Below are positions 4,046-43,721 of a stretch of DNA of 43,721 bases, piece by piece. The notes beneath the pieces were generated by a model. That model was not told the origin of the DNA. It did no database searches and was given only the letters and a program-made list of their open reading frames with translations. The first letter of the stretch is position 1; the number at the start of each line of letters is the position of its first letter. The position numbers were made by a program, and so were the translations under genes. This DNA comes from Methyloversatilis sp. Lineage in GTDB: Bacteria > Pseudomonadota > Gammaproteobacteria > Burkholderiales > Rhodocyclaceae. The stretch spans positions 1-43,721 of the forward strand of contig JAGNYW010000025.1 of assembly GCA_017984755.1 (NCBI GenBank). The letters are read 5' to 3'.

Positions 4046-4369
4046 ATGATGAAAGGCGGCATCGGTGGCCTGATGAAGCAGGCCCAGCAGATGCAGGAAA
4101 ACATGAAGAAGATGCAGGAGCAGCTGGCCAGCGTCGAGGTCGAGGGTCAGTCCGGCGCCGGCATGGTGAAGGTCGTCATGACCTGCAAGCACGATGTGCG
4201 AAGGGTGTCGATCGACCCGTCTGTCATGGACGATCGCGAAATGCTCGAAGATCTGATGGCTGCCGCGGTCAACGATGCGGTCCGCCGTGTCGAGACGACC
4301 ACGCAGGAAAAGATGGCGGGCTTCACTTCCGGCCTCAACCTGCCGCCCGGCTTCAAGCTTCCGTTCTGA
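4046..4369 (+). CDS. ybaB: YbaB/EbfC family nucleoid-associated protein
   Basis: A 107-aa protein with the family signature: N-terminal Gly and Met-rich segment ([20 protein letters not shown]), a helix rich in Gln and Met, then the short beta region around [19 protein letters not shown]. The family forms dimers with tweezer-like arms that bind DNA with little sequence preference and may help recombination repair, since the gene almost always sits between dnaX and recR, as here. It starts 10 bp after dnaX. Length is as usual for the family. Confidence 0.94.
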
Positions 4370-4406
4370 TGTTGTCCGGGACGATCCGCATGGTCCTGAT
4401 GCGCGG

Positions 4407-5000
4407 ATGACCGTCGGCGTTCTCGACGAGCTGGTCGCTGCGCTGCGCTGTCTGCCGTCAGTCGGGCCGAAAAGTGCGCAGCGCATGGCATTTCATCTGC
4501 TGCAACGTGACCGGTCGGGTGCGGAGAAACTTGCGCGAGCGCTGGGACAGGCGCTCACCCGTCTGCACAATTGTGTGCGCTGCAATACCTTCACCGAGCT
4601 CGATGTGTGCGAACGTTGTGCCTCGCCGCGGCGTGACGCGTCGCTGCTCTGCGTCGTCGAAAGTCCGGCGGACATGCTGATGATGGAGCAGACCCAGAGT
4701 TACGGCGGACTCTATTACTGTCTCATGGGCCGGATTGCACCGCTCGAGGGAGTCGGTCCGCGAGAACTGCGGCTCGAGCGTCTGCTCGAGCGCGCGGCGG
4801 ATCCGCAGGTTCGCGAAGTGATTCTGGCCACCAACTTCACCAACGAAGGCGAAGCGACTGCCCACTATCTGGGCGAAATGCTGCGCGCGCGCGGCATACC
4901 GGTCAGCCGCATCGCGCGCGGATTGCCGGTGGGCGGTGAGCTTGAGCACACCGATATCGGCACCATTGCACAGGCGCTCTCCGAGCGTCGCCCCGCATGA
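4407..5000 (+). CDS. recR: Recombination protein RecR
   Basis: A 197-aa protein. The start is set at ATG 4407 ([20 protein letters not shown]) because upstream in-frame sequence overlaps ybaB and does not resemble RecR. The helix-hairpin-helix segment [18 protein letters not shown] is followed by a four-Cys zinc finger (CVRC, CERC) and a Toprim domain with [13 protein letters not shown]. RecR acts with RecF and RecO to load RecA on gapped single-stranded DNA. It is the third gene of dnaX-ybaB-recR, and its stop overlaps the start of the next gene by 4 bp (ATGA). Confidence 0.96.
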
Positions 5001-18085: not shown

Positions 18086-21000
18086 ATGGCAAACAGGCGA
18101 ACGATGATGGCGGGCAGGCAGACGATCTGGTGGGCCGCGGCTGCGGTGGTGCTGGTGCTCGCGGCCGGACTCTGGTGGCAGACCGGACGGATCCCCGATG
18201 CAGGTGTGGCCGCCATCGGTGATGATCCCGACACCGCTTTTGCAGTCATGCGCTGCGATGCGCGCAGCCGCGATGAAGGTCCCGCGCTTGCCGTGACCTT
18301 CAGCCGCCCGCTGGCAGGGCGGCAGTCGCTGGACGATCTGCTGAAGGTGGTCGATCTAGGCGAAGCCGACGCCACTGCAGATGCCGCGAGACGGGTCGCA
18401 GGCTACTGGCGTCTGGGCGACAACCCGCGAATTGCGTACTTTTCCGGCGTACTGCCGAAACGGCGCTATCGCATTGACGTGGCGGCAGGCGTCGCGTCGC
18501 GCAGCGGCGATCTGCTCGCGGGTGCACACCAGTGCGAAACCGTGGTCGAGGACATGCCGCCCGCCTTCTTCTTCGCCAGTCGCGGTACCGTGCTGCCGGC
18601 TGGCCAGAACGGCGGTCTGCCGGTGGTCACCGTCAATACGCCGGAGGTCGACGTGCAGTTCCTGCGTGTCGAACCGGCGCAGTTGCCGGCCTTTCTGGAC
18701 AAGGTCCATGGCATCCGTCGTGCGCCGTCCGGCGAAGACGATGGCTCGCAGACGGAGAACGCCGACGCTTACGCCGAGGGCTACGAAGGCGAGTACTACG
18801 ACGGCGGAATCGTGGATATGCGCGGCCGCACGTCGGGCTGGACCATCGACCGCCTGAAGGAAATGTCGACCAGTGTCTATCTCGGTCGCTTCCAGACCGA
18901 TGACAAGCGGGATCGCCGGCACGTGAGCTTTCTGCCGGTCGAGCACATCAAGGAGCTGCGCGAGCCGGGCCTCTATGTGGCGGTGATGAACGTACCGGGG
19001 AGTTTTTCGGGCGACTATCAGACCACCTACTTCTACGTCAGCGACATCGGCCTGCACCTGCATCGCAACGGCGCCCGCATCGATGCGTTCGCCACTTCAC
19101 TCAAGTCGGGCAGCGCGCTCGACGCAGTGGATCTCGAACTGCTGGACGGTGACGGCAAGCGCGTCGGCGCGGCCAGAGCCGGTGAAGACGGCCGGGCCAC
19201 CTTCGACGCGACTTCTGCCAACGCACGCCTGTTGATTGCGCGACGTGGCCGCGAACTGTCGGTGGTGTCGCTGGCGGAGGCGGCGCTCGACCTGTCGGAA
19301 TTCGATGCCACCGGTCTGCTGCCGACGAACAACAAGCTGTTCGTCTGGAGCGGCCGCGATCTCTACAGACCGGGCGAAACCTTCGATGTGTCCGTACTTG
19401 CGCGTGACGCCGACGGCAAGCCGGTGGGTGCGCAGCCTCTGGCCGCGCTGCTCAAGCGGCCTGACGGACGTACGGTCAGCCAGCGCGTGTGGTCGCCGTC
19501 GGCCGAACAGCCGGGCTACTTCCGGCAGCCGCTGACCATTCCGGTGGATGCCCAGACCGGTGCCTGGACGCTGGAGCTGCGTGCCGATCCCGGTGCGAAG
19601 CGGCCGGATGCGGCCATGCGTTTCAAGGTCGAGGAGTTTCTGCCGGAACGCATGAAACTTGCGCTCGACAGCGCCGGCGGCGTGCTGACCGAAGGCGCGC
19701 CTTTCGACGTGAGGGTGCAGGGCGACTATCTGTTCGGCGCGCCGGCGGCCGGCAACCGGCTGCTCGCTTCGCTTGCGGTCGAACGACTGCGCTTTGCGCT
19801 GCCGGGCAAGCCGGGCTTCATCTTCGGCGACTTCGCCGACGACACGCTCAAGGGACGGCGCGAACTGGACGAAGCTGCGCTCGACGAAAAGGGCGCCGCT
19901 CAGGTCGCCATTCCCTACGATCCGGCCAATGCAAATTCGCCGCTGCAGTTGCGCGCCAGTTTCAGCCTGCTCGAATCCGCTGGTCGCCCGGTCGTGCGTT
20001 CGATCGAGCGCGCCTGGTGGCCGGCGCCCGCGCTGCTCGCCGTACGTCCGCTGTTCGACAGCGACGTGGCGCGCGAATCGGCGCTGGCCGGATTCGAACT
20101 TGGCCGCTTCCTGCCAGATGGCACCTTTGCGCCGGTCGGCAAGGCGAACGTGCGGCTGTTCCGCGAAGAGCGTCAGTACTACTGGCGCTTTGACGACCAG
20201 CGCGGCTGGCACTCCGGCTTCAGCGATGCCGACGAACTGATCGACAGCCGTACCGTAGCACTGACGGCGCAGGCGAAGCTGGCCTTCCCGGTGACGCGGG
20301 GCCGTTACCGGCTTGAAGTCGACGACCCGCAGCACCGCCGCACACTGCGCTACCGTTTCTACGCCGGCTGGGGCGCGCAGGACGATGAGGCGCTGGGCAA
20401 TCGCCCGGACCGCGTGCAGGTGCGCCTCGAAGGGGCGCCTTTCCGGGCGGGAGAGACCGTGAAGGCGCACCTTACGCCGCCTCATGATGGCGAAGCGCTC
20501 GTGCTGATCGAGGGCGACCGGGTGCTGTGGGCGAAGCGCATCAATGTCAGCGCAGCCGGCACCGCGATCGATCTGCCGCTCGACAAGAGCTGGAACCGCC
20601 ACGACCTCTACGTATCCGTGCTTGCCTTCCGGCCCGGCAGCGAAGGCAGCCGCGTGACGCCGGCGCGCGCGCTCGGTCTGGCGCACATTCCGCTGGCGCG
20701 CGACGACCGCAGACTGCAGGTGACGCTGGATGCACCGGCCAAGGTCGAGCCCGAGACCACGACGTCGGTCCGGGTGAAGGTGGCGGGCGCCACCGGTCAG
20801 CAGGCGTGGCTAACGCTGTCGGCGGTGGACCAGGGCATTCTGAACATCACCGGTTTCGCCACGCCCGATCCGCACGCCTACTTCTTCGGCAAGCAGCGCT
20901 ATGCGCCCGACCTGCTCGACATCTACGGCCGGCTGATCGAAAAGATGGACGGTACGCGCGGCAAGCTGAAATGGGGCGGCGACGCCAGCATGCGGGATTC

Positions 21001-23170
21001 GCAGAGCATGCCGAAGAAGGTGAAGCTGGTCGATCTGTTCACCGGTCCGGTGAAGCTCGACGACAAGGGCGAGGCGACCATCGCGCTCACCTTGCCCGAT
21101 TTCAACGGCAGCCTGCGCCTGATGGCCGTTGCCAGCACTCCGGAACGCTTCGGCCGGGGCGAACGCGAGCTGACCGTGGCGGCGCCCATCGTGGCGGAGC
21201 TGTCCACGCCGCGCTTCATTGCGCCGGGTGATGCCGCGGCGGTGGCGCTCGAGGTGACGAACCTGACGGATACCACGCAGCAGATCCGTCTCAAGCTTGA
21301 TGCCGACCCGCCGGTCTACATCCGGGACGGTGCCCGCAACCTGAGTCTCGCGCCGAAGCAGCGCGAAACGCTGCGTTTCTCTGCCGAAGCCATCGAAGCC
21401 GAAGGGCTGGCGCGATTGTCGCTGGTGCTCGATGCTGCGGGTGGGTCGAAGCCCATCCACATTGAACGCGAGGCCGCGCTGCAGGTGACGCCGCCGGTAC
21501 CGCTGCAGCGTCAGTCTCGGCGCGTGAAGATCGAGCCCGGTGCGCGTCATGTCGTGGATGCAGCGGTGCTCGACAGGTTCTGGCCGGCGTCGGCGGCGCT
21601 CAACCTCACCGCCGCGTCCAGTCCGCCGCTGAACATCCGTGAACACGTGCGCGGTCTGCTGCGCTATCCGTACGGCTGCGCCGAGCAGACCGTCAGTGCA
21701 GCGTGGCCGCATGTGATCATCGACGACGCGCAGGCGAAGGAACTGGGTCTGAAGGCGCATACGCGCGCCGAGCGCGTCGCGATGGTCGAAGGGGCGATCG
21801 GTCGTCTGGCCGGCATGCAGGGCGCCCAGGGCGGCATGACCTTGTGGGGGGGCGGCGAGTACGAATACTGGATCACCGCGTACGTGGCCGGTTTCCTGAT
21901 CGACGCGCGCGAGGGCGGCTTCACCGTTCCGGAAAGCTTCTCGAAGCGCATGCAGGACTGGATGCTGAAGGAATTCCAGCTGGCCCCGTCGCAGATGCCG
22001 CGCCTGCCGGTACGCACTGCGCAGCAGAAGGCTCAGCCGGGTGAAGACGATCTGGTGCGCGGTGCCCATGCCCGCTTCGCCAACGCAGCACACCTCGGCT
22101 ACGTACTGGCGCGCGAGCAGCGCGCGCCGCTGGCGACGCTGCGCCTGCTGCACGACGAGCACCGCCAGCTGGCGAAGTCGCCGCTGGCGCTGGCGCATCT
22201 CGGGCTGGCCCTCAGGCTGATGGGCGACGACGCGCGTTCGCGCGTGGCGCTCGACGAGGCGCTGGCCAAGCCTTACGGCCTGCGCGGCAACGATGAAGAA
22301 TACGAGTGGCTGGGTGATTACGGCAGTCCGCTGCGCGATCGCGCCATGCTTTACGCACTGCTGGCGCGCCATGACGTGAAGCTCGACCGCGCCGCCAATC
22401 TGCTGTTCGAACTGTCTGCCGATGCCGGCAAGCGACGCTGGCTGTCCACGCAGGAACAGATCGCGCTGGTGATGGCCGGTCGCGCAGCGGGCCTCGGCGC
22501 CGGAAAGCCGTGGTCACTCCGCATCGAAGGCGGGCAGGGTGTCGCCGGCAGCAAGCCATCGATGCTGCCGGTCGATGCCGCTGCTGCGCGCAAGGGCGCG
22601 GCACTGATCAATGCGGGAGACGCGCCGCTGTATGTCGAAGTCGAAGCCAGCGGCTATCCGAAAACACCGCCTGCACCCGAAAACGGACTGGGCAGCGTGC
22701 AGCGCACCCTGTTTGAGGCGGATGGCAGGCCGTGGAAAGGCGGGGCGCTCCGCGTCGGCGACCTGATGCTGGTGCGCGTCGAAGTCAGGCCGACCCGTCG
22801 CGCCGACGACGCGCTGCTGGTCGACCGCCTGCCCGCCGGGCTGGAGGTCGAGAACCTCAATCTGTCGCAAGGTCCGGGTGCGGCCGAATTTTCGCTGCAG
22901 CTGCCGTCGGGGCAGAGCCTGCGTGTCGCCGACACCATGACCGACAACCGCGTGAAGCATCGTGAATACCGCGACGACCGTTTCGTCGCCGCAGTGAAGC
23001 TCGACAGTGCGCCGATCAACCTTGTTTACATGGTGCGGGTGGTCACGCCGGGGCGCTACACCGTGCCGGCTACCTTCCTGGAAGACATGTACCGGCCGGA
23101 ACTGCGCACCGTGGGCGAGCCCGTGCCCATGGTCGACGTCGTCGACCCGTCGGCCAGCACGAAGCGCTGA
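18086..23170 (+). CDS. Bacterial alpha-2-macroglobulin (YfhM-like)
   Basis: A 1694-aa periplasmic or membrane-anchored protein with a single N-terminal hydrophobic segment (WWAAAAVVLVLAAGLWW); ATG 18104 (MMAGRQT) is an equally possible start. No lipobox Cys is seen, unlike the E. coli protein. Macroglobulin repeats follow, including an MG2-like YRPGETFDVSVLARD (about residue 430). The thioester motif is intact: YGCAEQT with Cys1198 and Gln1201, in a helical TED domain. Such proteins trap proteases that enter the periplasm, and are paired with PBP1C, which could repair peptidoglycan. Here pbpC lies 2.5 kb downstream on the same strand, with three unrelated genes between. Confidence 0.93.
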   Translation: MANRRTMMAGRQTIWWAAAAVVLVLAAGLWWQTGRIPDAGVAAIGDDPDTAFAVMRCDARSRDEGPALAVTFSRPLAGRQSLDDLLKVVDLGEADATADAARRVAGYWRLGDNPRIAYFSGVLPKRRYRIDVAAGVASRSGDLLAGAHQCETVVEDMPPAFFFASRGTVLPAGQNGGLPVVTVNTPEVDVQFLRVEPAQLPAFLDKVHGIRRAPSGEDDGSQTENADAYAEGYEGEYYDGGIVDMRGRTSGWTIDRLKEMSTSVYLGRFQTDDKRDRRHVSFLPVEHIKELREPGLYVAVMNVPGSFSGDYQTTYFYVSDIGLHLHRNGARIDAFATSLKSGSALDAVDLELLDGDGKRVGAARAGEDGRATFDATSANARLLIARRGRELSVVSLAEAALDLSEFDATGLLPTNNKLFVWSGRDLYRPGETFDVSVLARDADGKPVGAQPLAALLKRPDGRTVSQRVWSPSAEQPGYFRQPLTIPVDAQTGAWTLELRADPGAKRPDAAMRFKVEEFLPERMKLALDSAGGVLTEGAPFDVRVQGDYLFGAPAAGNRLLASLAVERLRFALPGKPGFIFGDFADDTLKGRRELDEAALDEKGAAQVAIPYDPANANSPLQLRASFSLLESAGRPVVRSIERAWWPAPALLAVRPLFDSDVARESALAGFELGRFLPDGTFAPVGKANVRLFREERQYYWRFDDQRGWHSGFSDADELIDSRTVALTAQAKLAFPVTRGRYRLEVDDPQHRRTLRYRFYAGWGAQDDEALGNRPDRVQVRLEGAPFRAGETVKAHLTPPHDGEALVLIEGDRVLWAKRINVSAAGTAIDLPLDKSWNRHDLYVSVLAFRPGSEGSRVTPARALGLAHIPLARDDRRLQVTLDAPAKVEPETTTSVRVKVAGATGQQAWLTLSAVDQGILNITGFATPDPHAYFFGKQRYAPDLLDIYGRLIEKMDGTRGKLKWGGDASMRDSQSMPKKVKLVDLFTGPVKLDDKGEATIALTLPDFNGSLRLMAVASTPERFGRGERELTVAAPIVAELSTPRFIAPGDAAAVALEVTNLTDTTQQIRLKLDADPPVYIRDGARNLSLAPKQRETLRFSAEAIEAEGLARLSLVLDAAGGSKPIHIEREAALQVTPPVPLQRQSRRVKIEPGARHVVDAAVLDRFWPASAALNLTAASSPPLNIREHVRGLLRYPYGCAEQTVSAAWPHVIIDDAQAKELGLKAHTRAERVAMVEGAIGRLAGMQGAQGGMTLWGGGEYEYWITAYVAGFLIDAREGGFTVPESFSKRMQDWMLKEFQLAPSQMPRLPVRTAQQKAQPGEDDLVRGAHARFANAAHLGYVLAREQRAPLATLRLLHDEHRQLAKSPLALAHLGLALRLMGDDARSRVALDEALAKPYGLRGNDEEYEWLGDYGSPLRDRAMLYALLARHDVKLDRAANLLFELSADAGKRRWLSTQEQIALVMAGRAAGLGAGKPWSLRIEGGQGVAGSKPSMLPVDAAAARKGAALINAGDAPLYVEVEASGYPKTPPAPENGLGSVQRTLFEADGRPWKGGALRVGDLMLVRVEVRPTRRADDALLVDRLPAGLEVENLNLSQGPGAAEFSLQLPSGQSLRVADTMTDNRVKHREYRDDRFVAAVKLDSAPINLVYMVRVVTPGRYTVPATFLEDMYRPELRTVGEPVPMVDVVDPSASTKR

Positions 23171-23334: not shown

Positions 23335-24492
23335 ATGTTGCGTGAAGCACTGTTCCGGGCCGGAGCGCCCGAGCCTGTCCGATCGTCGAAGCACGAACTG
23401 CTGTCCGAATTGCTTGCCGAGGCGGATATCCGGCTCGATGGTCCGTCCGTCTGGGACATGCGGGTCGCGTCACCCGCCCTCGCTACCCGCCTGTTCGCCC
23501 AGGGCAGCCTCGGTCTGGGCGAAAGCTACATGGATGGCGACTGGGAGGCCGAGCGGCTGGACGAGTTCTTCGCCCGGCTGCTGCGTGCCCGTCTGGGTGA
23601 CAAGGTCAGGCCGGCCGTCATCCTGATGCATGCGCTCGGTGCGCGCCTGTTCAATCGCCAGACACGCAGCCGCGCCTGGGAGGTGGGCGAGCGGCACTAC
23701 GATCTGGGCAATGACTTCTACGCAGCCATGCTCGATCCGCGCATGACCTACACCTGCGCCTGCTGGGCCGACGCGGCGGATCTTGCTTCGGCGCAGGACG
23801 CCAAGCTGGACCTGATCTGCCGCAAGCTCGGGCTGGCGCCGGGCATGCGCCTGCTCGATGTCGGATGCGGCTGGGGCAGCCTCGTGGGTTTCGCCGCGGA
23901 GCGTTTCGGCGTCGAATGCGTCGGCGTGACCATCTCGCGCGAACAGGCGGAGTGGGGGCGGCAGCGCTACGCTCATCTGCCGGTCGAATTCAGGCTGCAG
24001 GACTACCGCGACCTCGATGAACGTTTCGACTGCGTCGCCAGCGTGGGCATGTTCGAGCATGTGGGGCGGAGGAACTTCCGTACCTTCATGCAGGTGATGC
24101 GGCGCTGCCTGGATCCGGACGGCCTGATGCTGCTGCACACGATAGGCAAGAACACCCGGCAGGGTGCCACCGACCCCTGGATAGACCGCTACATCTTCCC
24201 GAATGGCGACCTGCCTGCGATCGGCCAGATCGGCGACGCGCTGGACGATCTTTTCGTGGTCGAGGACCTGCACAGCTTCGGTGCCGACTACGATCGCACG
24301 CTCATGGCCTGGCATGCCAACTTCGAGGCGGCGTGGCCGCGCTTTGCCGACCGGCTGGGCGAACGCTTCCGCCGCATGTGGCGCTACTACCTGCTTTCGT
24401 GCGCCGGCGCCTTCCGCGCGCGCGACATCCAGTTATGGCAGTGGGTGCTGTCACCGCGCGGCGTGGCGGGCGGTTACCGGCGCACGCGCTGA
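23335..24492 (+). CDS. cfa: Cyclopropane-fatty-acyl-phospholipid synthase
   Basis: A 385-aa S-adenosylmethionine-dependent enzyme. An N-terminal lipid-binding domain (1-110) precedes the core. The lipid-site signature HYDLGNDFYAAMLD begins at His121, and the SAM-binding motif LDVGCGWGS is at 174-182; GMFEHVGRRNFRTFMQ and HTIGKNTRQG are also typical. It adds a methylene group across cis double bonds of membrane phospholipids, hardening the membrane in stationary phase or acid. GGAGG precedes the ATG at a good distance. It is a stand-alone gene between the macroglobulin gene and a convergent hypothetical gene. Confidence 0.94.
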   Translation: MLREALFRAGAPEPVRSSKHELLSELLAEADIRLDGPSVWDMRVASPALATRLFAQGSLGLGESYMDGDWEAERLDEFFARLLRARLGDKVRPAVILMHALGARLFNRQTRSRAWEVGERHYDLGNDFYAAMLDPRMTYTCACWADAADLASAQDAKLDLICRKLGLAPGMRLLDVGCGWGSLVGFAAERFGVECVGVTISREQAEWGRQRYAHLPVEFRLQDYRDLDERFDCVASVGMFEHVGRRNFRTFMQVMRRCLDPDGLMLLHTIGKNTRQGATDPWIDRYIFPNGDLPAIGQIGDALDDLFVVEDLHSFGADYDRTLMAWHANFEAAWPRFADRLGERFRRMWRYYLLSCAGAFRARDIQLWQWVLSPRGVAGGYRRTR

Positions 24493-25626: not shown

Positions 25627-28005
25627 ATGCGGACTGTTGCGGTTCTGCATCGCCCGGTCACGCGCCACCGGCACTTGATGTTCGCGCTGCTGCTGCTGTT
25701 CGCGCTGCTGTGGCTGACCGATCGTGCGTTCCCGCCACCGCTGCCGGCGGGTGATGACGGCTTCATCGTGCTGGCACGCGACGGCAGCCCGCTGCGCGCA
25801 TGGCCGGGGGCCAACGGCGCATGGCGGTATCCGGTGTCGCCCGGTGAGGTGTCGCCGCGTTATGTCGAGGCATTGCTGGGTTACGAAGATCGCTGGTTCC
25901 GCCTGCACCCCGGCGTCAATCCGGCTTCGCTGGTGCGCGCCGCGTGGCAGTGGGCGACGCAGCGCCGCGTCGTGTCGGGCGGTTCGACCCTCACCATGCA
26001 GGTGGCGCGCATCCTCGAACCGGTGCCGCGCACGCCGCTCGGCAAGCTGCGCCAGATCGCCCGCGCGCTGCAGCTCGAATGGCATCTGTCGAAAGACGAC
26101 ATCCTCACGCTGTACCTTAACCACGCGCCGATGGGCGGCATCGTCGAAGGTGTGGAAATGGCCAGCCGCATTTACCTGGGCAAGCCGTCGCGCGACCTGA
26201 GCCATGCCGAAGCAGCGCTGCTCGCCACATTGCCGCGCGCGCCGAGCCGGCTGCGGCCGGACCGCTCGCCGCACGCGGCGCAGGCCGCGCGCGACCGCGT
26301 GCTGACGCGGCTTGAGAGTTTCGGCATCTGGACCCGCGACGTGGTGACCGATGCGCGCATCGAACCGGTCATCGCGCAGCGCGTGCAGGGCGTCTGGCTG
26401 GCGCCGCTGGCGGCAGAACGCCTGCGCGGCCAGACGAAGCGCTCGCAGCAGCACGGCGTCATGCGCGTCGCCAGCACGCTCGACCGCGAACTTCAGGCGA
26501 CGGTCGAGCGTCTGCTGGCCGATCGTGCCTCGGTACTGCCGCCGAAAGTATCCATCGCCGCGCTGGTCATGGAGGTCGATACGCTCGAGGTGCGCGCCTA
26601 CGCCGGTTCGGCCGATTTCACCGATGCCGGGCGCAGCGCGCACGTCGACATGGTGCGCGGCGTGCGCTCGCCGGGCTCCACCCTCAAGCCCTTTCTGTAT
26701 GCGATGGCGCTGGACGACGGCCTCATCCATTCCGAAAGTCTGCTCATCGACGCACCCCAGACCTTCGGCGGCTACCAGCCCGGTAACTTCCAGGCCGACT
26801 TTTCCGGGCCGGTCAGCGCCGCCGAGGCGCTGCAGCGCTCGCTCAACGTGCCCGCCGTCGACCTGCTCGACCAGCTCACCCCGCAGCGCTTCGCCAGCCA
26901 GCTTGCCGCCGGTGGCCTCAAGCTGCGCATCGCCACCGCCGAGCAAGCCAATCTCAGCCTCATCCTCGGTGGTGCCGGCGTCACGCTGGAAGAACTGGTC
27001 GGCGGCTACCGTGCGCTGGCCGCCGGCGGTCTGGCCGGCAAGCCCCGGCTGGTGCCGGACGCGCCGCTGGAGGAATCACGGCTGATGAGCGAAGGCGCTG
27101 CGTGGATCGTGCGTGACATCCTCGAGGGTGGCGGCCATCCCGACCGCCCGTTCGTCGAGGGCACCGCCGCTGCGCCGCTGGCCTGGAAAACCGGTACCAG
27201 CTTCGGCTTCCGCGACGCCTGGGCGGTCGGCGTGGCCGGTCGCCATGCGCTCGGCGTATGGATAGGGCGACCCGACGGCACGCCCAACCCGGGTTTCTTC
27301 GGTGCCAATGTCGCGGCGCCCTTGCTGAAGGACATCGCCGCCGCACTGCCGCACGAAGCGCCGCCCGCGCAGACCCGGCCCGCGTCGGTGCGACGGGTCG
27401 ACATCTGCTGGCCGCTCGGCGTGGCGGTTGCCGACACGCCCGCAGCGCTGTGTCACCGCCGGCGCAGCGCCTGGTCGCTGGCCGGCGCCGTACCGCCAAC
27501 CCGTCCGGACCGCATCGACGGCAGCAGTCTGCGGCAGACCATCCGGATCAACCCGGTCACCGGCCTGCGCACCGTGTCCGGCTGCGGAAACGGTCAGCGA
27601 GATGAAGCGCGGCGCGACATCGCCCGCTGGCCGGTGCTTCTGCAACCGTGGCTTGCCGGCTGGCTGCCCGCCGCTCAGCACCTGCCCGACTGGCAACCCG
27701 GTTGCACCCCCTCCGGCGCTGCCACCACCGCCACGCTGCGCATCGTCGGCCTCACCGAGGGCACCCGTCTGCGCCCCGCTCCGCGCCAGCGTCATGTGAC
27801 GCTGCAACTGCAGGTTCGCGGCGCGCAGGGCACGGTCTACTGGCTGCTTGACGGCCGGCGCATGCAACCGGGGGCAGGCGGAACGCTGTTGCTGGACGAA
27901 CCGGGCGAACACCGGCTGACGGCGATGGACGGCGAGGGACGGCATCACAGCGTGCGCTTCACGCTTGATCCGGCGCCAGGTGCGCGGGGTGTGCCCGCGC
28001 AGTGA
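25627..28005 (+). CDS. pbpC: Penicillin-binding protein 1C
   Basis: A 792-aa bifunctional class A enzyme with an N-terminal membrane anchor (LMFALLLLFALLWL, about 18-31). The glycosyltransferase domain has EDRWFRLHPGVNP and GGSTLTMQVARIL. The transpeptidase has the SxxK motif at Ser351 (SPGSTLKP), an SLN motif in RSLNVPAVD, and KTGTS at 521-525. A C-terminal BiPBP_C domain follows (about 695-785). Length is close to E. coli PBP1C (770). It acts at the outer face of the inner membrane and is thought to mend peptidoglycan near alpha-2-macroglobulin. It starts 3 bp after the DUF2007 gene. Confidence 0.95.
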   Translation: MRTVAVLHRPVTRHRHLMFALLLLFALLWLTDRAFPPPLPAGDDGFIVLARDGSPLRAWPGANGAWRYPVSPGEVSPRYVEALLGYEDRWFRLHPGVNPASLVRAAWQWATQRRVVSGGSTLTMQVARILEPVPRTPLGKLRQIARALQLEWHLSKDDILTLYLNHAPMGGIVEGVEMASRIYLGKPSRDLSHAEAALLATLPRAPSRLRPDRSPHAAQAARDRVLTRLESFGIWTRDVVTDARIEPVIAQRVQGVWLAPLAAERLRGQTKRSQQHGVMRVASTLDRELQATVERLLADRASVLPPKVSIAALVMEVDTLEVRAYAGSADFTDAGRSAHVDMVRGVRSPGSTLKPFLYAMALDDGLIHSESLLIDAPQTFGGYQPGNFQADFSGPVSAAEALQRSLNVPAVDLLDQLTPQRFASQLAAGGLKLRIATAEQANLSLILGGAGVTLEELVGGYRALAAGGLAGKPRLVPDAPLEESRLMSEGAAWIVRDILEGGGHPDRPFVEGTAAAPLAWKTGTSFGFRDAWAVGVAGRHALGVWIGRPDGTPNPGFFGANVAAPLLKDIAAALPHEAPPAQTRPASVRRVDICWPLGVAVADTPAALCHRRRSAWSLAGAVPPTRPDRIDGSSLRQTIRINPVTGLRTVSGCGNGQRDEARRDIARWPVLLQPWLAGWLPAAQHLPDWQPGCTPSGAATTATLRIVGLTEGTRLRPAPRQRHVTLQLQVRGAQGTVYWLLDGRRMQPGAGGTLLLDEPGEHRLTAMDGEGRHHSVRFTLDPAPGARGVPAQ

Positions 28006-31206: not shown

Positions 31207-32247
31207 TCAACCTGCTGCCAGCAGCGCCACCGCAACCGCCGGCGCACAGGTGCTTGCGTCGCCGGCGCAGTCATCGGTGCAGTGGTCGGCGAGCAGTTGC
31301 TGCAGCGGAAGCGCAGGGCGGCCCAGTTGCCGCGCCAGCTCGATGGCAACGAAATGACCGGCACCTGCACACACCACCGGTGCACCGGCCGACAGCGATG
31401 CGATGCCGGGCAGCGTGCCGGCGGCGTCGGCCAGCGTGGCGATCTGTGCGTCGGAAAATGCGCCGGCCAGTGCGCGCCAGTCGGCGATCGATCCATCCGC
31501 CATGTCGCGACCGATCATGCGGGCGATGCGACGCGCGCTGGCCTCGGGTGTCTTCATGCCGCCGTCGGCGGTCGGATAGTGGTCGGCGTCTTCCGGCAGC
31601 AGACCGAGCAGGCGCCAGACATCGGAGGTGGTGGCGAAGTGTTCGGCCATCACGCGGTAGCTTTGCCCCTTGAACGGAACCTTCTGCGCAATCGCCATGA
31701 GCGGGGTGCGCACCACGCCGGCATAGACCAGTTCACCGCTGATCAGCCGGTCGGCATCGCTGCGGCTGGTGCCAGCCACGCCGTGGTCGATCACGATCAG
31801 ATCGCTGGTGGTGCTGCCGATGTCGGCCAGCAGTGCCTGCGGGCAGCGGGAGGCGATCCATTGTGCCGTTGCCAGCCAGTTCGCCGATGCAATGTCGTCC
31901 GCATGATCGGCGGCCTGGGCGGGCGTGAGCCAGCCGGCGCGACCCGCAAACAGCGTGATCGCCCCCGGCAGGTTTGCTTCGAGATGCTGCGTGATGCCGA
32001 TGACGCCACCGGTGCGCGAGTCGAACAGGTCGACCATCTCGCCGGTCATCGTGACCGCATGCCGGTTGCTTGCGCCGAGCGCTGAACGTGCCTGGGCCAG
32101 CGCGGCATCGAGGCGGTCCAGACCCTGCCACAGCGGGCAGGCGATCTGCACAACGCCGGTCACGCGCCCGTTGTCGACGCGGGCCGCCTTGAGATGTGCG
32201 CCGCCGATGTCCCAGCCGATCAGGTGGGTGTCAGTAGATTTCGTCAT
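31207..32247 (-). CDS. mfnF: Hydantoinase/ASKHA-like methylofuran biosynthesis protein MfnF
   Basis: A 346-aa protein often labelled 'H4MPT-linked C1 transfer pathway protein' (COG1548). The N-terminal phosphate-1 motif is GWDIGGAHLKAARV (about residues 11-24) and DIGSTTSDLIVIDHG is the second ASKHA-type motif (about 141-155). In methanogens MfnF joins the aminomethylfuran unit to the tyramine-glutamate part of the cofactor. Methylofuran then serves as formyl carrier for the formyltransferase/hydrolase complex in methylotrophs. Its start overlaps the end of mfnD by 17 bp, so translation is coupled. The role in this organism is by homology. Confidence 0.85.
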   Translation of the reverse strand: MTKSTDTHLIGWDIGGAHLKAARVDNGRVTGVVQIACPLWQGLDRLDAALAQARSALGASNRHAVTMTGEMVDLFDSRTGGVIGITQHLEANLPGAITLFAGRAGWLTPAQAADHADDIASANWLATAQWIASRCPQALLADIGSTTSDLIVIDHGVAGTSRSDADRLISGELVYAGVVRTPLMAIAQKVPFKGQSYRVMAEHFATTSDVWRLLGLLPEDADHYPTADGGMKTPEASARRIARMIGRDMADGSIADWRALAGAFSDAQIATLADAAGTLPGIASLSAGAPVVCAGAGHFVAIELARQLGRPALPLQQLLADHCTDDCAGDASTCAPAVAVALLAAG

Positions 32248-33280
32248 GGAATGTTCGAGGGTTGACCAGATCGAGGTTCATGGAGCCGATGCCGGCATGC
32301 GGGCGTGGCAGCAACTGACCACGGGCCGCCGCCAGTGTGGCGGCGAGCAGGTTTAAGCCGAGCGTGCTGCGCAGCGCGCAGGCCGATGTGCTGAATCGAG
32401 GATTGATTTCGACTACGAGCGGTCCGTCGTCAGTGTGCAGCAGATCTACACCCACGTGGCCGAGCAGCCCGGGCAGGGCGGCAGCGATGCGTGTGGCCAG
32501 CGCTGAGTAGCGTGCGTCCGGCGTCACTTCACCCACACCCAGTGCGGCCAGCGACACACGGTCGCCGTCGTGCCTGAGGTATTGCCGGTTGACCGACAGC
32601 AGCACCGCCTCGCCGCGCGCGCACAGCAGATTCATGCTGCGCGCTTCGCCTGCGAACCACGGCTGGGCGATGTGACCGCTGCCGCGCGCGCGCAATGCGC
32701 GTGCGGCAGCGAGGTGATCATCGACGATCTGCAGGCCGTCGCAGCCGGCACCATCGTCGGGTTTCACGACCCAGCGGCCCGGCGTGCCGGTCAGCCGGCC
32801 GATGCGATCGGGATCGGCATGGTGCGGCAGCACGGCGATGCCGTTCAGGGCGAGATGATCGGCGGTGCGCGATTTCGATCCGGCAATGCGGCAGGCCTCG
32901 GCATCGCAGCCGAGCAGCAGCCGGCCCGATGCTTCGACACGGTCGACCAGCGACGCCAGCACGCCACCGGTTTCCGGGGCCAGCACGATGGCCGCATCGC
33001 AGCGATCGAGTGCTGCATCGAAAGCCGTCTCGAAAACGCCGGCGTTCGCGATGGTGATGCATTCGGTGATGTTCTGGGTGACGCCACGGGTCGCGCGGTC
33101 ATCGAGCCCGGGCAGGCGGCCGTCGCGCAGCGTCACCACCCCGGTGCCCGGCAGATCGCCCGCGTCGCGCAGCAGGGCGTCCAGCATCAGCGTTCCTTCG
33201 TACAGCAGCGAGGCGGGCAGCGGCCGATCGGCCAGTCCACCGCCGGTGATAAACTCGAACACGAAAATGCGCTGCTTCAT
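32231..33280 (-). CDS. mfnD: ATP-grasp ligase of methylofuran biosynthesis MfnD
   Basis: A 349-aa ATP-grasp protein starting at ATG 33280 (MKQRIFVFEFITGGGLAD, the normal N-terminus of this COG2232/1821-type family); longer frames enter the divergent gene. It has the WVVKPDDGAGCDGLQI loop that covers ATP and the VEINPRFSTSACALRS metal-binding strand. In methanogens MfnD joins glutamate to tyramine as an early step of methanofuran synthesis. No Shine-Dalgarno is seen before this ATG and only 10 bp separate it from the start of the divergent HisA-like gene, so a leaderless or read-in mRNA is possible. It leads the operon mfnD-mfnF-mfnE. Confidence 0.85.
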   Translation of the reverse strand: MKQRIFVFEFITGGGLADRPLPASLLYEGTLMLDALLRDAGDLPGTGVVTLRDGRLPGLDDRATRGVTQNITECITIANAGVFETAFDAALDRCDAAIVLAPETGGVLASLVDRVEASGRLLLGCDAEACRIAGSKSRTADHLALNGIAVLPHHADPDRIGRLTGTPGRWVVKPDDGAGCDGLQIVDDHLAAARALRARGSGHIAQPWFAGEARSMNLLCARGEAVLLSVNRQYLRHDGDRVSLAALGVGEVTPDARYSALATRIAAALPGLLGHVGVDLLHTDDGPLVVEINPRFSTSACALRSTLGLNLLAATLAAARGQLLPRPHAGIGSMNLDLVNPRTFHDEIY

Positions 33281-33290
33281 ATAAGGGTTC

Positions 33291-33980
33291 GTGGTGCCAG
33301 AAATCATTCCCGTCATCGACCTCATGCAGGGTCAGGTCGTGCATGCCCGCCGTGGCGACCGGCAAGCTTACCAGCCACTGCAGTCTTCCCTGGTCGAGGG
33401 TTGCGATCCGCATGACGTTGCGCAGGCACTGATCCGGGCGACCGGCGCGCGCCAAGTCTATATTGCGGACCTCGACGCCATCCGGGGGCAAGGTGATCAC
33501 TCGGCGCTGATAGCCGAACTGGCGAAACGTCATCCGGGTGTCGAGTGGTGGGTGGATGGCGGTTATGCCGATGCCGCTCCCGCGCTGGCGCTGCATCGCG
33601 CTGCCGGTATCACGCCGGTGTTCGGCACCGAGTCGATGCGCAGCTACGGCGCGTTGCGCAAATGCCGCAATTCGCGCATAGAGGCCGTGCTGTCGCTCGA
33701 CTACCGGCGCGGCATTCCACTCGGCCCGGACTGGGCATTCGACCATGGCGAATGGCCGGCTCGCGTGATCGCAATGGAACTGGCGCGTGTCGGGGCCGAA
33801 GAAGGTCCGGCGCTGCAGCTCATCCGCACTCTGCAATCGATTCGTCAGGACGTGAATGTCATCGCTGCCGGCGGCGTGCGCGACCGCGACGATCTCGCTG
33901 CGCTCGATGCCATCGGCGTCACTGCAGTGCTGGTGGCCAGTGCGCTGCACGACGGGCGGCTGCAGGGCCTGCTGACTTGA
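33291..33980 (+). CDS. HisA-like TIM-barrel protein linked to the H4MPT/methylofuran pathway, function unassigned
   Basis: A 229-aa (beta/alpha)8 protein related to HisA (COG1411 type). The first strand IPVIDLMQGQVVHARRGDR carries the HisA-like Asp and the basic residues that bind sugar phosphate in that fold; VYIADLDAIRGQG is the second half-barrel signature, and the phosphate-binding glycines lie in VIAAGGVRDRDDL and near the C-terminus (VASALHDGRL). It is distinct from true HisA and sits among methylofuran genes rather than his genes. The precise reaction is not known to me. GTG 33291 is used, with AAGGG 5 bp before it; GTG 33294 is an alternative. It is divergent from mfnD and converges on mtfA. 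Confidence 0.85.
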   Translation: MVPEIIPVIDLMQGQVVHARRGDRQAYQPLQSSLVEGCDPHDVAQALIRATGARQVYIADLDAIRGQGDHSALIAELAKRHPGVEWWVDGGYADAAPALALHRAAGITPVFGTESMRSYGALRKCRNSRIEAVLSLDYRRGIPLGPDWAFDHGEWPARVIAMELARVGAEEGPALQLIRTLQSIRQDVNVIAAGGVRDRDDLAALDAIGVTAVLVASALHDGRLQGLLT

Positions 33981-37741: not shown

Positions 37742-38096
37742 GGCCGGAAAATACTATCGGATGCGTATGCAAGGCGCACATTTTGTGCAGTCGAATCAAA
37801 CAACGTGCAGCGGGGCGGTCTGGCAGCAATGGCTGGGGTAGGTGAAGTACGGTCGCAGACCTTTCCATGGCACCCTGCAGGATGCCTCCGGCGCTGCGGA
37901 TCGTCCGATCGGCGGTCGCGCCGCCTCCGCGACCGTCGATCCCTGTGCGGCAGCACGCCGACATATCGTCCGCCGCACGCGGGCAGGGCTGTTGCGGCAG
38001 CGCATCGTTCGCCGGTGTTCGGATTTTGCCGACGGTGATGTAGGGTGCGCGCTGAAGTTCCGAACACTTCATTCGATTTCACGCGGAGCCGGTCGC
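37742..38096. other. Divergent intergenic region between the GGDEF gene and the esterase-monooxygenase gene
   Basis: About 355 bp with no convincing gene. The open frame upstream of ATG 38097 has Arg/Ala-rich shadow character. Near the GGDEF gene start there is a small inverted repeat, GCACA-ttt-TGTGC (37776-37788). Both promoters must lie here, but I see no strong -35/-10 pair. Confidence 0.5.
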
Positions 38097-40478
38097 ATGA
38101 TCAACACGCACCACCCCCGGGGTTTCTTCGAGGCAATCTCGGCCTTTCTGCTGCGCGCTACGCTGAAGCTGCTGCTGAAGCCGGTGTTCTCGCCGCGCTG
38201 GTCGGTTGGCTTCCAGCGCCGCTGGCTGGCCGGATTGGCCCGTACGACCTGGCTGCCGGGCGGTGTGTCGATCGAGCAGGCCGAGGTCGGCGGCGTTCCC
38301 GGCGAGTGGCTGCGCCGCCGCGATGTGCCACCGGCGAAGGCGGGGGTGATTCTGTACATGCACGGCGGCGCCTATTGCCTCGGGTCTGCGGCCGGACATC
38401 GTGCGCTGACGTCCCGACTCACGCTTGCAACCGGTCTGCCGGTGTTTTCGCTCGATTACCGCCTTGCGCCGGAACACCCCTTCCCGGCCGCCATCGACGA
38501 TGCGGTCGCCGCCTTTCGTGCCCTGAGCGACAAGGGGCCGGTCATCGTGGCCGGCGATTCGGCGGGCGGCGGTCTGGCGCTCGCCACGGCCCTGGCCCTG
38601 CGCGATGACGGCTCACCTCTGCCGGCGGCGCTGGTGCTGCTGTCGCCCTGGGCCGATCTCGGCCGCGACAGCGCGCCGCAGGTCGAACCCCCCGGCGAGG
38701 CGATGCTGAGCACCGAATGGGCCACTGCCTGCGCCGCGCTCTACCTCGGCAATGCGCCGGCGGATTCGCCGCTGGCGTCGCCATTGCGCGCTGACCTGAG
38801 CGGTCTGCCGCCGACGCTCATCCAGGTCGGGACCGACGAACTGCTGCTCGATCAGTCGGTCGCGCTGCACGACGCCATGCAGGCGGCCGGCGTCGATGTG
38901 CGCTGCGACATCACTGCGCGGCGCTGGCATGTCTTCCAGATGCATGGCGGCGCGATGCGCAGCGCCGACCATGCGATCGCACGCATTTCCCGTTTCCTGC
39001 TGCAGCCGCTCGCCGCCGCGACGCCGCCGGGCGCGAGCCGGCACGAAGCGGTGATCCTCGGTGCCGGCATGTCCGGTCTGTGCATGGCGATACAGCTCAA
39101 GCGCGCGGGCATCGAGGATTTCGTCATCATCGAGAAGCAGGACGGGCTGGGCGGCACCTGGTGGGACAACACCTATCCCGGTGCCCATGTCGATGTGCCG
39201 TCGCCGGTGTATTCATTCTCCTTCGCGCCCAATCCGGACTGGTCGCGCCGCTTCGCGTCGGCGCCGGAAATCCAGCGCTACATGCAGCAGGTGGCCGAAC
39301 GTCATGGCCTGCTGGGCCACATGCGGCTGGGAACCCGTCTCGCCGAAGCCACCTTCGATGAATCCAGCGGTCGCTGGAAGTTCGCCACCGAACGCGGCGA
39401 CACGCTCAGTGCGCGCTTTTTCGTGTGCAGCACCGGCCCGCTGAGTCAGCTGCGCTGGCCCGACGTACCGGGCCTGGAAGACTTCCGCGGCAAGAAGATC
39501 CACTCTGCGCGCTGGGACCACGATTACGCATTGAACGGCAGGCAGGTTGCCGTGATCGGCACCGGGTCGACCGCGTCGCAACTGGTACCGCCGGTGGCCG
39601 GGCAGGCGCAGCAGCTCTATGTGTTCCAGCGCACCGCCAACTGGGTGATGCCGCGTCTCGATCGCCCCTACAACGCGCTCGATCGCCTGCTCGCGCACTT
39701 TCCGCCGTACGCGGCGCTGGTGCGCAGGAGCTGGACGCAGGTACTGGAGCTGGGCCGGCGCGGCTTCGACGAGGGCACGCTGGCGCGCCGGTCGATGCTG
39801 TGGACGGCTGCTGCGCACCTGAAGAGGCAGGTGCCGGACGAAGTGCTGCGCCGCAAGCTCGCACCGCCGTACCCGCTGGGCTGCAAACGCATCATCTATT
39901 CGAATGACTTCTACGCGGCGCTGGTGCGGCCGAACGTCGAACTGGTGACCGACGCCATCGAACGCATCACCGCGAACGGTGTGGTCACGGCCGACGGCCG
40001 CGAACGCAGCGTCGACACCCTGGTGTGCGCCACCGGTTTCGATACCGTGCACCTGCTGTCGTCGGTGCGCGTGACCGGGCTGGGCGGACGCACGCTGAGC
40101 GAGGCGTGGGCCGACGGCCCGGAGGCCTACCACGGCATCACGGTATCGGGTTTTCCCAACATGTTCCTGATGCTCGGGCCGAACACCGCTACCGGCCACA
40201 CATCGACCCTGCTGTACATCGAGCCCGAGGCGCAGCACGCCATCACCTGCATGCAGGCCGTGCGTACCGGCGGCCACCGCTGGATCGACGTGCGCGCCGA
40301 GGTGCTGGGTGCGCACAATCGCGCGCTGCAGGCGCGTCTGGGCAGCTCGGTATGGAGCCAGTGCCGCAGCTGGTACCGCATGGAAAGCGGTCGCGTGATC
40401 GCCATCTTTCCGGGCTTCACGAACGAATACGTCAGAGCGGTGAAGCAGGTGGATCTTTCGCACTACACGCTCGTCTGA
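38097..40478 (+). CDS. Fusion of an HSL-type esterase and a Baeyer-Villiger flavin monooxygenase
   Basis: A 793-aa two-domain protein. The N-terminal half (about 1-310) is an alpha/beta hydrolase of the hormone-sensitive lipase family: HGG oxyanion motif at 89-91, nucleophile Ser155 in GDSAGG, Asp247 (VGTDELLLD) and His278 (RRWHVFQM). The C-terminal half (about 316-793) is a flavin monooxygenase: FAD motif GAGMSG (322-327), GGTWWDNTYPGAHVDVPS, the Baeyer-Villiger fingerprint FRGKKIHSARW (463-473) and a second Rossmann motif GTGSTASQ. A monooxygenase would turn a ketone into an ester or lactone that the esterase half could hydrolyse, so one protein may do two sequential steps. Substrate unknown. 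The first 30 residues are hydrophobic and basic and may anchor it to the membrane. Confidence 0.92.
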   Translation: MINTHHPRGFFEAISAFLLRATLKLLLKPVFSPRWSVGFQRRWLAGLARTTWLPGGVSIEQAEVGGVPGEWLRRRDVPPAKAGVILYMHGGAYCLGSAAGHRALTSRLTLATGLPVFSLDYRLAPEHPFPAAIDDAVAAFRALSDKGPVIVAGDSAGGGLALATALALRDDGSPLPAALVLLSPWADLGRDSAPQVEPPGEAMLSTEWATACAALYLGNAPADSPLASPLRADLSGLPPTLIQVGTDELLLDQSVALHDAMQAAGVDVRCDITARRWHVFQMHGGAMRSADHAIARISRFLLQPLAAATPPGASRHEAVILGAGMSGLCMAIQLKRAGIEDFVIIEKQDGLGGTWWDNTYPGAHVDVPSPVYSFSFAPNPDWSRRFASAPEIQRYMQQVAERHGLLGHMRLGTRLAEATFDESSGRWKFATERGDTLSARFFVCSTGPLSQLRWPDVPGLEDFRGKKIHSARWDHDYALNGRQVAVIGTGSTASQLVPPVAGQAQQLYVFQRTANWVMPRLDRPYNALDRLLAHFPPYAALVRRSWTQVLELGRRGFDEGTLARRSMLWTAAAHLKRQVPDEVLRRKLAPPYPLGCKRIIYSNDFYAALVRPNVELVTDAIERITANGVVTADGRERSVDTLVCATGFDTVHLLSSVRVTGLGGRTLSEAWADGPEAYHGITVSGFPNMFLMLGPNTATGHTSTLLYIEPEAQHAITCMQAVRTGGHRWIDVRAEVLGAHNRALQARLGSSVWSQCRSWYRMESGRVIAIFPGFTNEYVRAVKQVDLSHYTLV

Positions 40479-42323: not shown

Positions 42324-42833
42324 TTAGTTGGCTGCGAACGGGTGCGTGGCGGAACCCTTCTTTGCGACCACTTCGGCAGCGGTCGGGGTGCCGGCAACAG
42401 CGCGCGCGATCGATTCCTTGACGGCGCGGTAGTTGAAGTCCTGGATCTTTGCGTCGTCTTCGGCCATCCAGTGGATGAACACGCCAACGCAGATGAACAG
42501 GTTGTCGGCTTCGTCAGCCGGGATCGTGCCGTCAGCAACGCTGTCGGCAACGGCCATCGCGACGCCGCGCTGAGCCGGGCCGAACATCTGGACAGCCTGC
42601 TTGGCGCCCTTGATGGTGACCTTGTTGAACATGACCGTTGCCGGCTTGCACAGCAGGTTCGGTGCAACGACAGCCAGCAGGGACGTGAAGCCGTCCTTGT
42701 TGTTGACCAGGGCATTGGCAAACGCAGATTCGGCAGCGCTACCGCGCGGGCCCATGATCAGATCGATGTGGGCAACTTCGTTGCCATCACCGACCAGGGA
42801 TTCACCAACACACAGACCATTAATCTTCGCCAT
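42324..42833 (-). CDS. fae: Formaldehyde-activating enzyme
   Basis: A 169-aa enzyme that joins formaldehyde to tetrahydromethanopterin to give methylene-H4MPT, the entry step of the H4MPT-linked formaldehyde oxidation route in the cytoplasm. The start is ATG 42833 ([17 protein letters not shown]), preceded on the minus strand by a strong GAGGAG ribosome-binding site; an upstream ATG is out of place with it. Motifs: [10 protein letters not shown] with the catalytic His22, and [19 protein letters not shown]. Length is normal for the family. A TATAAC (42859-42864, minus strand) could be its -10 box. The protein is usually abundant in methylotrophs, in line with the strong RBS and terminator. Confidence 0.97.
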
Positions 42834-42931
42834 ATTGAATCTCCTCATTTACAAGGCAGTTATAGGGGTTTCCCCCGGGTGTAGCCCGCGTTCCGGGATA
42901 CGAAACACAGGTTCAAAACTTCGTTGTCGCG

Positions 42932-43721
42932 TCAGGCACCTGTCAGGGCAAGTGCAGAGGCCAGGAAGACCGTCACGACCGTCAGATCAGCGCTTGTCCC
43001 GGGATTGATTCCGGCCGTCTTGAGGACGCCGTCCCATGTCTTCAGCGCATCTTGCATCATAACCGGATCATCGCTTTGATCAAACCGATCAAGCATCTGT
43101 ATCGCTTTTTCCCGCACCGATAGCGCCGTTTCCGGACCATGTTTGCGCATGATGTGGGTATCGGGAATCAATGCGAGACAAAACATGAACACTGTGGCCG
43201 CCGCCCATCGATCATCACGCCCCCGGCGACGCGCCGCAGCATGAACGGGCAGCAGGTGTTCGAAGATCAGTGCGTAGCCGTTTGCGTACAGCGACGCAAT
43301 GCTGTCCCGGTGTCCGGCCACCTTCATTGCCTGCAGCAGGGTGATCTGCGCGGGGGCAGCCACATCGTCCTTTTCCCGTCGGCCCAGTCCGGCCGGTTGC
43401 GCCAGACGTATTGCCTCATATGCGTGTGACGCGTCGGTGACGTTCAGTGCATCGAGCGTGCGCTGCAGCGATGTGCGCAGCGATTCGCCAGTTTTCTGCT
43501 GCAGTGCAGCGTGGGCGATCGGCGCACAACCGAGCACGATGCCCAGATTGGTGTTGCAGCCGACTGCCTGCCAGGTTGCATGCATGGCAGCGAGAATGCG
43601 TTCGCCGACCGTACCGTCGGCAGAACACAGTGCCGGTGCAGCGGTTTCTGCGCTGGCCAGGAAATCGGCCACCTGCATGCGATGACCGTCGCCATGCAGA
43701 CCGACATTGCCGGGCTTGAGC
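42932..43721 (-). CDS. CitG/MdcB-like triphosphoribosyl-dephospho-CoA synthase family protein next to fae, 5' end cut
   Basis: Partial: the frame runs open to the window edge, and the first visible residues LKPGNVGLHGDGHRM carry the family's conserved KPGNV motif; 263 residues are seen. The family makes the CoA-derived prosthetic group of citrate or malonate lyase, but in methylotrophs a relative lies next to fae (the gene known there as orf17) and is tied to H4MPT-linked metabolism rather than citrate use. A role in making H4MPT or methylofuran is inferred from that. It is about 98 bp upstream of fae on the same strand. Confidence 0.88.
   Translation of the reverse strand, partial: LKPGNVGLHGDGHRMQVADFLASAETAAPALCSADGTVGERILAAMHATWQAVGCNTNLGIVLGCAPIAHAALQQKTGESLRTSLQRTLDALNVTDASHAYEAIRLAQPAGLGRREKDDVAAPAQITLLQAMKVAGHRDSIASLYANGYALIFEHLLPVHAAARRRGRDDRWAAATVFMFCLALIPDTHIMRKHGPETALSVREKAIQMLDRFDQSDDPVMMQDALKTWDGVLKTAGINPGTSADLTVVTVFLASALALTGA

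Follow-up and report, generated by a model that had tools for sequence, protein, structure and literature searches.

Does the long open frame in this stretch of Methyloversatilis DNA encode a genuine two-enzyme protein, and if so, what would be gained by joining an esterase to a Baeyer-Villiger monooxygenase (BVMO)? The window, by which we mean the whole stretch of 43,721 nucleotides that was analyzed, carries both enzymes in one frame of 793 codons with zero stops and zero frameshifts. The fused protein matches Pfam Abhydrolase_3 at residues 85 to 281 (E 1e-55) and FMO-like at residues 319 to 524 (E 1e-16). Its frame stays open upstream to position 37842; the ATG at 38097 is preceded by a GGAG 8 nt upstream, and several relatives have a methionine at or adjoining the same position. 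No in-frame ATG, GTG, or TTG lies between residues 287 and 319, so an intact monooxygenase has no obvious start of its own inside the frame. Together with the single open reading frame, this rules out a frameshift or two starts in the window gene. Two other readings of the locus were set aside. A foreign island was ruled out by composition, as G+C is 0.65 to 0.69 along the fusion gene and 0.59 to 0.67 in its flanks, with no clear step at the gene edges, and a defense system was dropped, as no PADLOC match was obtained at E 1e-5. A promoter scan found none, a result of little weight. The features of the gene are listed in the table.

Table. Features of the esterase-BVMO fusion gene, in window coordinates
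Feature	Residues	Position	Strand	Remarks
Fused esterase-BVMO coding sequence	793 aa plus stop	38097..40478	+	Single ORF; relatives fused too
HSL-type esterase domain, cap included	about 12-305	38130..39011	+	
HGG motif	89-91	38361..38369	+	Kept in 84/84 aligned esterases
GDSAG nucleophile motif, S155	starts 153	38553..38567	+	S155 in 84/84 esterases
E248, likely triad acid	248	38838..38840	+	Codon after D247; acidic in 84/84 (E 82, D 2)
H278, triad histidine	278	38928..38930	+	H in 84/84 aligned esterases
Junction: last esterase helix (288-308) into short Ala/Pro-rich linker	296-317	38982..39047	+	
Type I BVMO domain	about 310-793	39024..40475	+	
First Rossmann motif, GAGMSG	322-327	39060..39077	+	
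BVMO fingerprint 1, GGTWWDNTYPGAHVD	352-366	39150..39194	+	Pattern in 42/42 distinct fusions
BVMO fingerprint 2, FRGKKIHSARWD	463-474	39483..39518	+	H469 and W473 in 41/41 others; whole pattern in 39/42
Second Rossmann motif, GTGSTA	488-493	39558..39575	+	
R598, aligned with GAKR arginine of steroid monooxygenase	598	39888..39890	+	R in 41/41; STMO alignment

The N-terminal half has the HGG and GDSAG motifs and the Ser-acid-His triad of bacterial HSL (family IV) esterases, and the predicted structure shows their alpha/beta-hydrolase fold with an N-terminal cap. Its relatives EstD11, Est8, E40, EstE5, and Aes72 are 36 to 43% identical and share the whole fold with cap, HGG, and GDSAG; their entries are esterase alone, whereas the window protein carries a BVMO too. 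It is not a member of the NCBIfam GESAG HSL subfamily (NF058651; 227.8 bits against a curated cut-off of 430). D154-S155, HGG, and H278 are unchanged in all 84 aligned esterases, a set made up of 41 fusions of the same order as the window's, 19 fusions of the opposite order (BVMO first), and 24 separate genes; L042 and L181, broken or shortened, count among the 41; left out were L030 and L033, which are truncated, along with duplicates and the distantly related L122. The initial annotation had claimed complete catalytic motifs in both halves, and S155, H278, and FxGxxxHxxxW are indeed where it had placed them, with HGG and both Rossmann motifs present as well, but its choice of D247 as the triad acid did not hold up. 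Column 247 is Asp in 40 of the 41 same-order fusions (Asn in L018), in only 1 of 19 opposite-order fusions (Gln or His in the other 18), and in 9 of 24 separate esterases (another residue in 15), and EstD11 has Ala at this column, followed by Glu. As column 248 is Glu or Asp in 84 of 84 while column 247 varies, E248 is the better candidate and is likely the triad acid. The Asn of L018 therefore need not mean a loss. The basic, hydrophobic N-terminus had also been taken as a hint of membrane association; from residue 12 on, this segment matches residue 2 onward of EstD11 in the alignment and corresponds to the HSL cap, which rules out a membrane anchor.

The C-terminal half shows the type I BVMO fold in the predicted structure of the fusion, and its closest PDB sequence matches are steroid (STMO), then cyclohexanone (CHMO) and phenylacetone (PAMO) monooxygenases. 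These three have the fold, the Rossmann motifs, and both fingerprints in common with the window protein and are 26 to 33% identical to its BVMO half in structure alignment; they differ from it in having no N-terminal esterase, and the middle region of STMO is about 30 residues longer. The half is not a member of the pentalenolactone D synthase PtlE family (NF045818; 223.6 bits against a curated cut-off of 1100). H469, W473, D366, R598, which we take to be equivalent to R337 of PAMO, and the tested Rossmann glycines are unchanged in all 41 other distinct same-order fusions; residue 463 is Phe in 40 of these and Tyr in 1, and residue 493 is Ala in 40 and Ser in 1. Residues 463 to 473, FRGKKIHSARW, conform to the fingerprint FxGxxxHxxxW[P/D] (463 to 474), for which the pattern misses among the 42 fusions are L030, L033, and L177. 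The fingerprint [A/G]GxWxxxx[F/Y]P[G/M]xxxD is found at 352 to 366 of the window protein and in every one of the 42. Two copies of the type I BVMO Rossmann pattern GxGxx[G/A] (PMC9836352) are present in 41 of 42 distinct fusions, the exception being L001, with Ser in the last place.

Structure prediction gave both partner folds complete (pLDDT 91.2, pTM 0.90), and a prediction from fused relatives only gave pLDDT 84.0 and pTM 0.85. Helix 288-308 is present in both models. The stretch corresponding to residues 296 to 318 is 20 to 32 residues long across the 42 fusions.

A scan of GTDB genome contigs returned 136 relatives, and the counts that follow rest on 80 of them. Both halves lie in one frame in 37 (five of which, L015, L019, L022, L030, and L033, are cut by contig ends), 2 are fused but broken (L042 and L043), 6 are close standalone BVMOs 65 to 70% identical to the BVMO half (L036, L037, L038, L040, L041, and L046), and the remaining 35 are more distant BVMOs. 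The central claim of the initial annotation, that esterase and BVMO form one polypeptide, is thus borne out both by the single open frame and by the one-frame relatives. Neither of the findings that it had named as fatal to the idea, two starts or a frameshift at about codon 310 in relatives and a mutated active site in most homologues, is the rule: only the 2 broken loci stand beside the 37 in one frame, and the catalytic residues are kept across the aligned fusions. Those 2 broken loci are what could be cited for an assembly or reading error that joined two genes; given the 37 one-frame fusions, including one on a complete chromosome (L028, CP059256.1), an artifact has a negligible probability. 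The protein is a real, conserved, natural esterase-BVMO fusion.

The spread of the same-order fusion is patchy. The window's genus is Methyloversatilis, as judged by same-genus loci nearly identical to L002 and L004. It was found in 6 of 13 genomes of the window's genus and was absent from 7 at an E-value limit of 1e-30, and, under the likewise strict limits of 1e-90, 1e-80, and 1e-130, respectively, it was found in 1 of 369 genomes of a class-wide sample (the window's own), in 2 of 398 of a phylum-wide sample, and, in one frame, in 10 of 299 genomes of one family of the order, that of G608; in an eleventh genome of this family (G806), the fusion extends only to residue 519. A cytochrome P450 gene occurs in 9 of the 13 genus genomes, among them 4 of the 6 that bear the fusion, the window's own being without it; there is no clear link between the two. 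No esterase remnant was detected in up to 2.5 kb before the standalone BVMOs L036, L037, L038, L041, L046, and L236 (best E 0.23), and the contig of L040 starts 210 bases before its BVMO. The standalone members of the fusion clade may have lost the esterase, or some may be older than the fusion. In L043, two esterase remnants in two frames lie just 5' of the BVMO (4150-4560), a pattern that resembles deletion of the esterase half; the BVMO itself is broken, and the coverage of this contig is 2.4. Separately, BVMO-like proteins of one genus (L165 to L171) occupy open frames of 660 to 892 aa, and L165 and L167 have a similar N-terminal stretch ahead of the first Rossmann motif. As their frames contain no esterase match, they were excluded from the fusion counts.

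The same two kinds of enzyme are also joined in the opposite order. A plasmid search led to an 821-residue Burkholderia glumae protein, annotated as an alpha/beta hydrolase fold domain-containing protein (WP_251108010.1), in which the BVMO comes first and the esterase second. Its halves are homologous to those of the window protein (43% identical for the BVMO and 40% for the esterase), from which it differs in its reversed order, in belonging to another clade, and in its adjoining AraC and GMC genes. Among 200 plasmid records matching this fusion, a single place covers at least 80% of it in 54, and the best-matching place is at least 99% identical in 51; these matches are mostly near-copies, as the 40 listed are all from B. 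glumae. One B. glumae plasmid record has the fusion split in two, each piece falling under an annotated gene of its own. Within a related family, 18 of 200 genomes carry a full-length opposite-order fusion, 71 to 78% identical; four of these had one TGA counted inside the match, and a re-reading gave a single open reading frame with the motifs for 17, L200 being missed by the pattern. Loci of this arrangement include L135 (4950-7412) and L185 to L202, and a more distant example is L118. Nine opposite-order loci were read for neighbors (8 of the 18, plus G029): AraC and GMC homologues accompany 7 of them, with ALDH too in 2 of the 7, while L206 has AraC alone and L211 has no AraC, GMC, or ALDH homologue. 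Near two standalone BVMOs of the same-order clade there are GMC oxidoreductase genes (L038:9231-10811 and L046:7487-9157, both on the minus strand), which share 45 and 44% identity, respectively, with the B. glumae GMC gene.

In a quick tree of 146 BVMO domains, which took in two opposite-order fusions (L118 and L135), the 42 distinct same-order fusions and 7 standalone BVMOs formed one clade (SH-aLRT 100). L118 and L135 grouped with the standalone BVMO L157, and these three adjoined 9 BVMOs that are followed by a separate esterase gene (joining branch, 86). A careful tree of 61 rows recovered the same-order clade at 100/100 and L118, L135, and L157 at 100/99, and left the link of the latter to the neighbor-pair BVMOs inside a larger group at 96/98. 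The two kinds of fusion also lay apart in a quick esterase tree (69 rows), where a separate esterase from L106, a locus of BVMO-then-esterase order, fell on a long branch beside the same-order fusions at 89. AU tests were marginal: one clade holding both kinds of fusion together with L157 and the standalone BVMOs was disfavored at P = 0.0486, and a same-order clade free of the standalone BVMOs at P = 0.0483. The case for two origins rests on the opposite order and the tree placement. Two origins are likely on these grounds, though not proven, and the recurrence of the pair in both orders suggests that the halves work together.

The two families also occur as neighboring genes. Within 400 bases, an esterase gene lies downstream of 11 BVMOs and upstream of 8, and 99 BVMOs stand alone (171-odd places aside), many of them with a flank of only about 1.5 kb. 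A BVMO followed by an esterase, with a divergent AraC gene, was found in L215, L216, L220, and L221, and an SDR gene is next to the pair in both loci checked (L215 and L216). The order esterase then BVMO occurs in L148, L159, and L162; in L217, a wider stretch around L159, the two genes overlap by 4 bases, and no AraC or GMC homologues were found in the wider stretches L217 to L219. Esterase then BVMO, with dehydrogenase genes nearby, also occurs on four plasmids, from Arthrobacter, Rhodococcus, Polaromonas, and Pseudomonas, an arrangement that we take to resemble cyclohexanone operons. In Williamsia (L053), the order is BVMO, SDR, esterase. The gene set as a whole (pairs, AraC, GMC, ALDH, and SDR) would fit a route in which a secondary alcohol is oxidized to a ketone, the ketone is converted to an ester, and the ester is split into an acid and an alcohol. 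On a plasmid of Mycolicibacterium chubuense NBB4 (L134), three BVMO-like genes and one esterase gene stand in a row, adjoining a P450 gene and a fatty acid-CoA ligase gene.

The surroundings of the same-order fusion are different in kind from a catabolic operon of the cyclohexanone type, in which a BVMO is adjoined by alcohol and aldehyde dehydrogenase genes; by this definition, the window locus is not such an operon. Upstream of the window's fusion come a PAS-GAF-GGDEF gene and then an SDR gene, both on the opposite strand, and a HAD gene lies downstream. A scan of 20 neighbor genes, one of them from Williamsia, found no conserved catabolic neighbors, and most of the 20 are unrelated (DnaJ, thioredoxin-like, L25, peptidyl-tRNA hydrolase, LpxC, and ABC transporter). 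Four related loci (L017, L018, L020, and L035) share a GST gene upstream, another alpha/beta hydrolase lies directly 3' of the fusion in L008 and L016, and in L034 a same-strand SDR gene precedes the fusion by 73 bases; SDR homologues (31 to 32%) flank 5 of 34 fused loci and occur near the window's gene as well. No AraC, GMC, or ALDH homologues were found at E 1e-12 near 35 fusions, the window's included. Genomes of the same genus also differ in the fusion site: the HAD gene found downstream in the window lies about 4 kb from the fusion in G007 and about 170 kb from it in G004. The attempt to derive a pathway from these mostly unrelated, unconserved neighbors was dropped.

Collectively, these findings suggest that the fused protein is a self-contained bifunctional ketone-cleaving enzyme, a reading to which we give a probability of about 0.78. 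The C-terminal flavin BVMO half would insert oxygen next to the ketone carbonyl, yielding an ester (or lactone), which the N-terminal HSL-type esterase half would split into alcohol and acid (or a hydroxy acid). Fusion would hold the halves at 1:1, keep the ester near its hydrolase, and pull the sequence forward. That the reactions are consecutive, as the initial annotation had proposed, gains indirect support from the separate-gene pairs elsewhere and from the opposite-order fusion; for this protein, we infer catalysis, reaction order, cofactors, and the advantage of fusion alike. Counting against bifunctional ketone cleavage are the lack of conserved catabolic neighbors, the 7 same-clade BVMOs without an esterase, and the 7 of 13 genus genomes without the gene. 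The first two of these would be expected if the halves acted on different substrates, the esterase being a general hydrolase and the fusion ensuring only co-expression or stability; this is improbable, however, as co-expression of unrelated activities explains less well that several lineages have the two families as neighbors and that fusions exist in both orders. BVMO relatives can oxidize sulfur or nitrogen, for which no esterase is needed, and type I BVMOs are often promiscuous, so the BVMO half might instead oxygenate sulfur or nitrogen and have nothing to do with esters. The conserved BVMO fingerprints and the repeated pairing with an esterase make this a very slim prospect.

Within bifunctional ketone cleavage, a special case would have the BVMO half act on a cycloalkanone, terpenoid, or steroid ketone and the esterase half serve as a lactone hydrolase. 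The PDB matches of the BVMO half, the dehydrogenase-flanked plasmid pairs with their likeness to cyclohexanone operons, and a type I BVMO reported beside a monoterpene epsilon-lactone hydrolase (PMC9836352) speak for it. However, the plasmid-operon BVMOs are only 28 to 31% identical to the window's and sit on a far branch of the tree, and the BVMO half is shorter than STMO in mid-region by the stretch noted above, leaving the cyclic version possible but doubtful. In our judgment, the substrates are somewhat more likely to be linear or aryl-alkyl ketones than small cyclic ketones. A stronger form of the bifunctional reading, in which a predicted fixed domain arrangement would deliver the ester or lactone made at the flavin site to the esterase site without releasing it, a solution evolved twice from gene pairs, once per order, seems to us unlikely.

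Both families and the reaction sequence are already known. Conversion of a ketone to an ester and then an alcohol by separate BVMO and esterases has been described (PMC6304351, PMC12753306), with BVMO and esterase levels higher on a C28 alkane (PMC6304351), and in the sad cluster, SadD (BVMO) acts with the esterases SadA and SadB on 2-ketones (PMC12753306). AlmA was found to be a BVMO (PMC12449030). In the sad cluster, the AraC-BVMO-esterase operons, and cyclohexanone operons, the same two activities are expected in sequence, but in separate proteins rather than one; the sad cluster is likened here by its published description (PMC12753306). Artificial Baeyer-Villiger fusions are under construction for biocatalysis, for example, of an alcohol dehydrogenase with cyclohexanone monooxygenase (PMC5624969). 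A natural one-protein esterase-BVMO form was not found in the open-licence PubMed Central literature, and an earlier report elsewhere is possible. The fusions link a set of BVMOs without an assigned role to ketone cleavage, which has been proposed as a step in breaking down long-chain alkanes and the 2-ketones of a model polyethylene (PMC6304351, PMC12753306). Natural fusions of both orders, with their separate-gene cousins as controls, offer a test of channeling and reduced product inhibition against mere co-expression.

Elsewhere in the window, a bacterial alpha-2-macroglobulin gene and a penicillin-binding protein 1C gene lie close together (18086-23170 and 25627-28005, plus strand), with a cyclopropane-synthase-like gene between them (23335-24492). 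Genes for a formaldehyde-activating enzyme, CitG, Hydantoinase_A, and ATP-grasp proteins are found on the minus strand (42324-42848, 42932-43678, and 31207-33325) and presumably reflect tetrahydromethanopterin-linked C1 metabolism.
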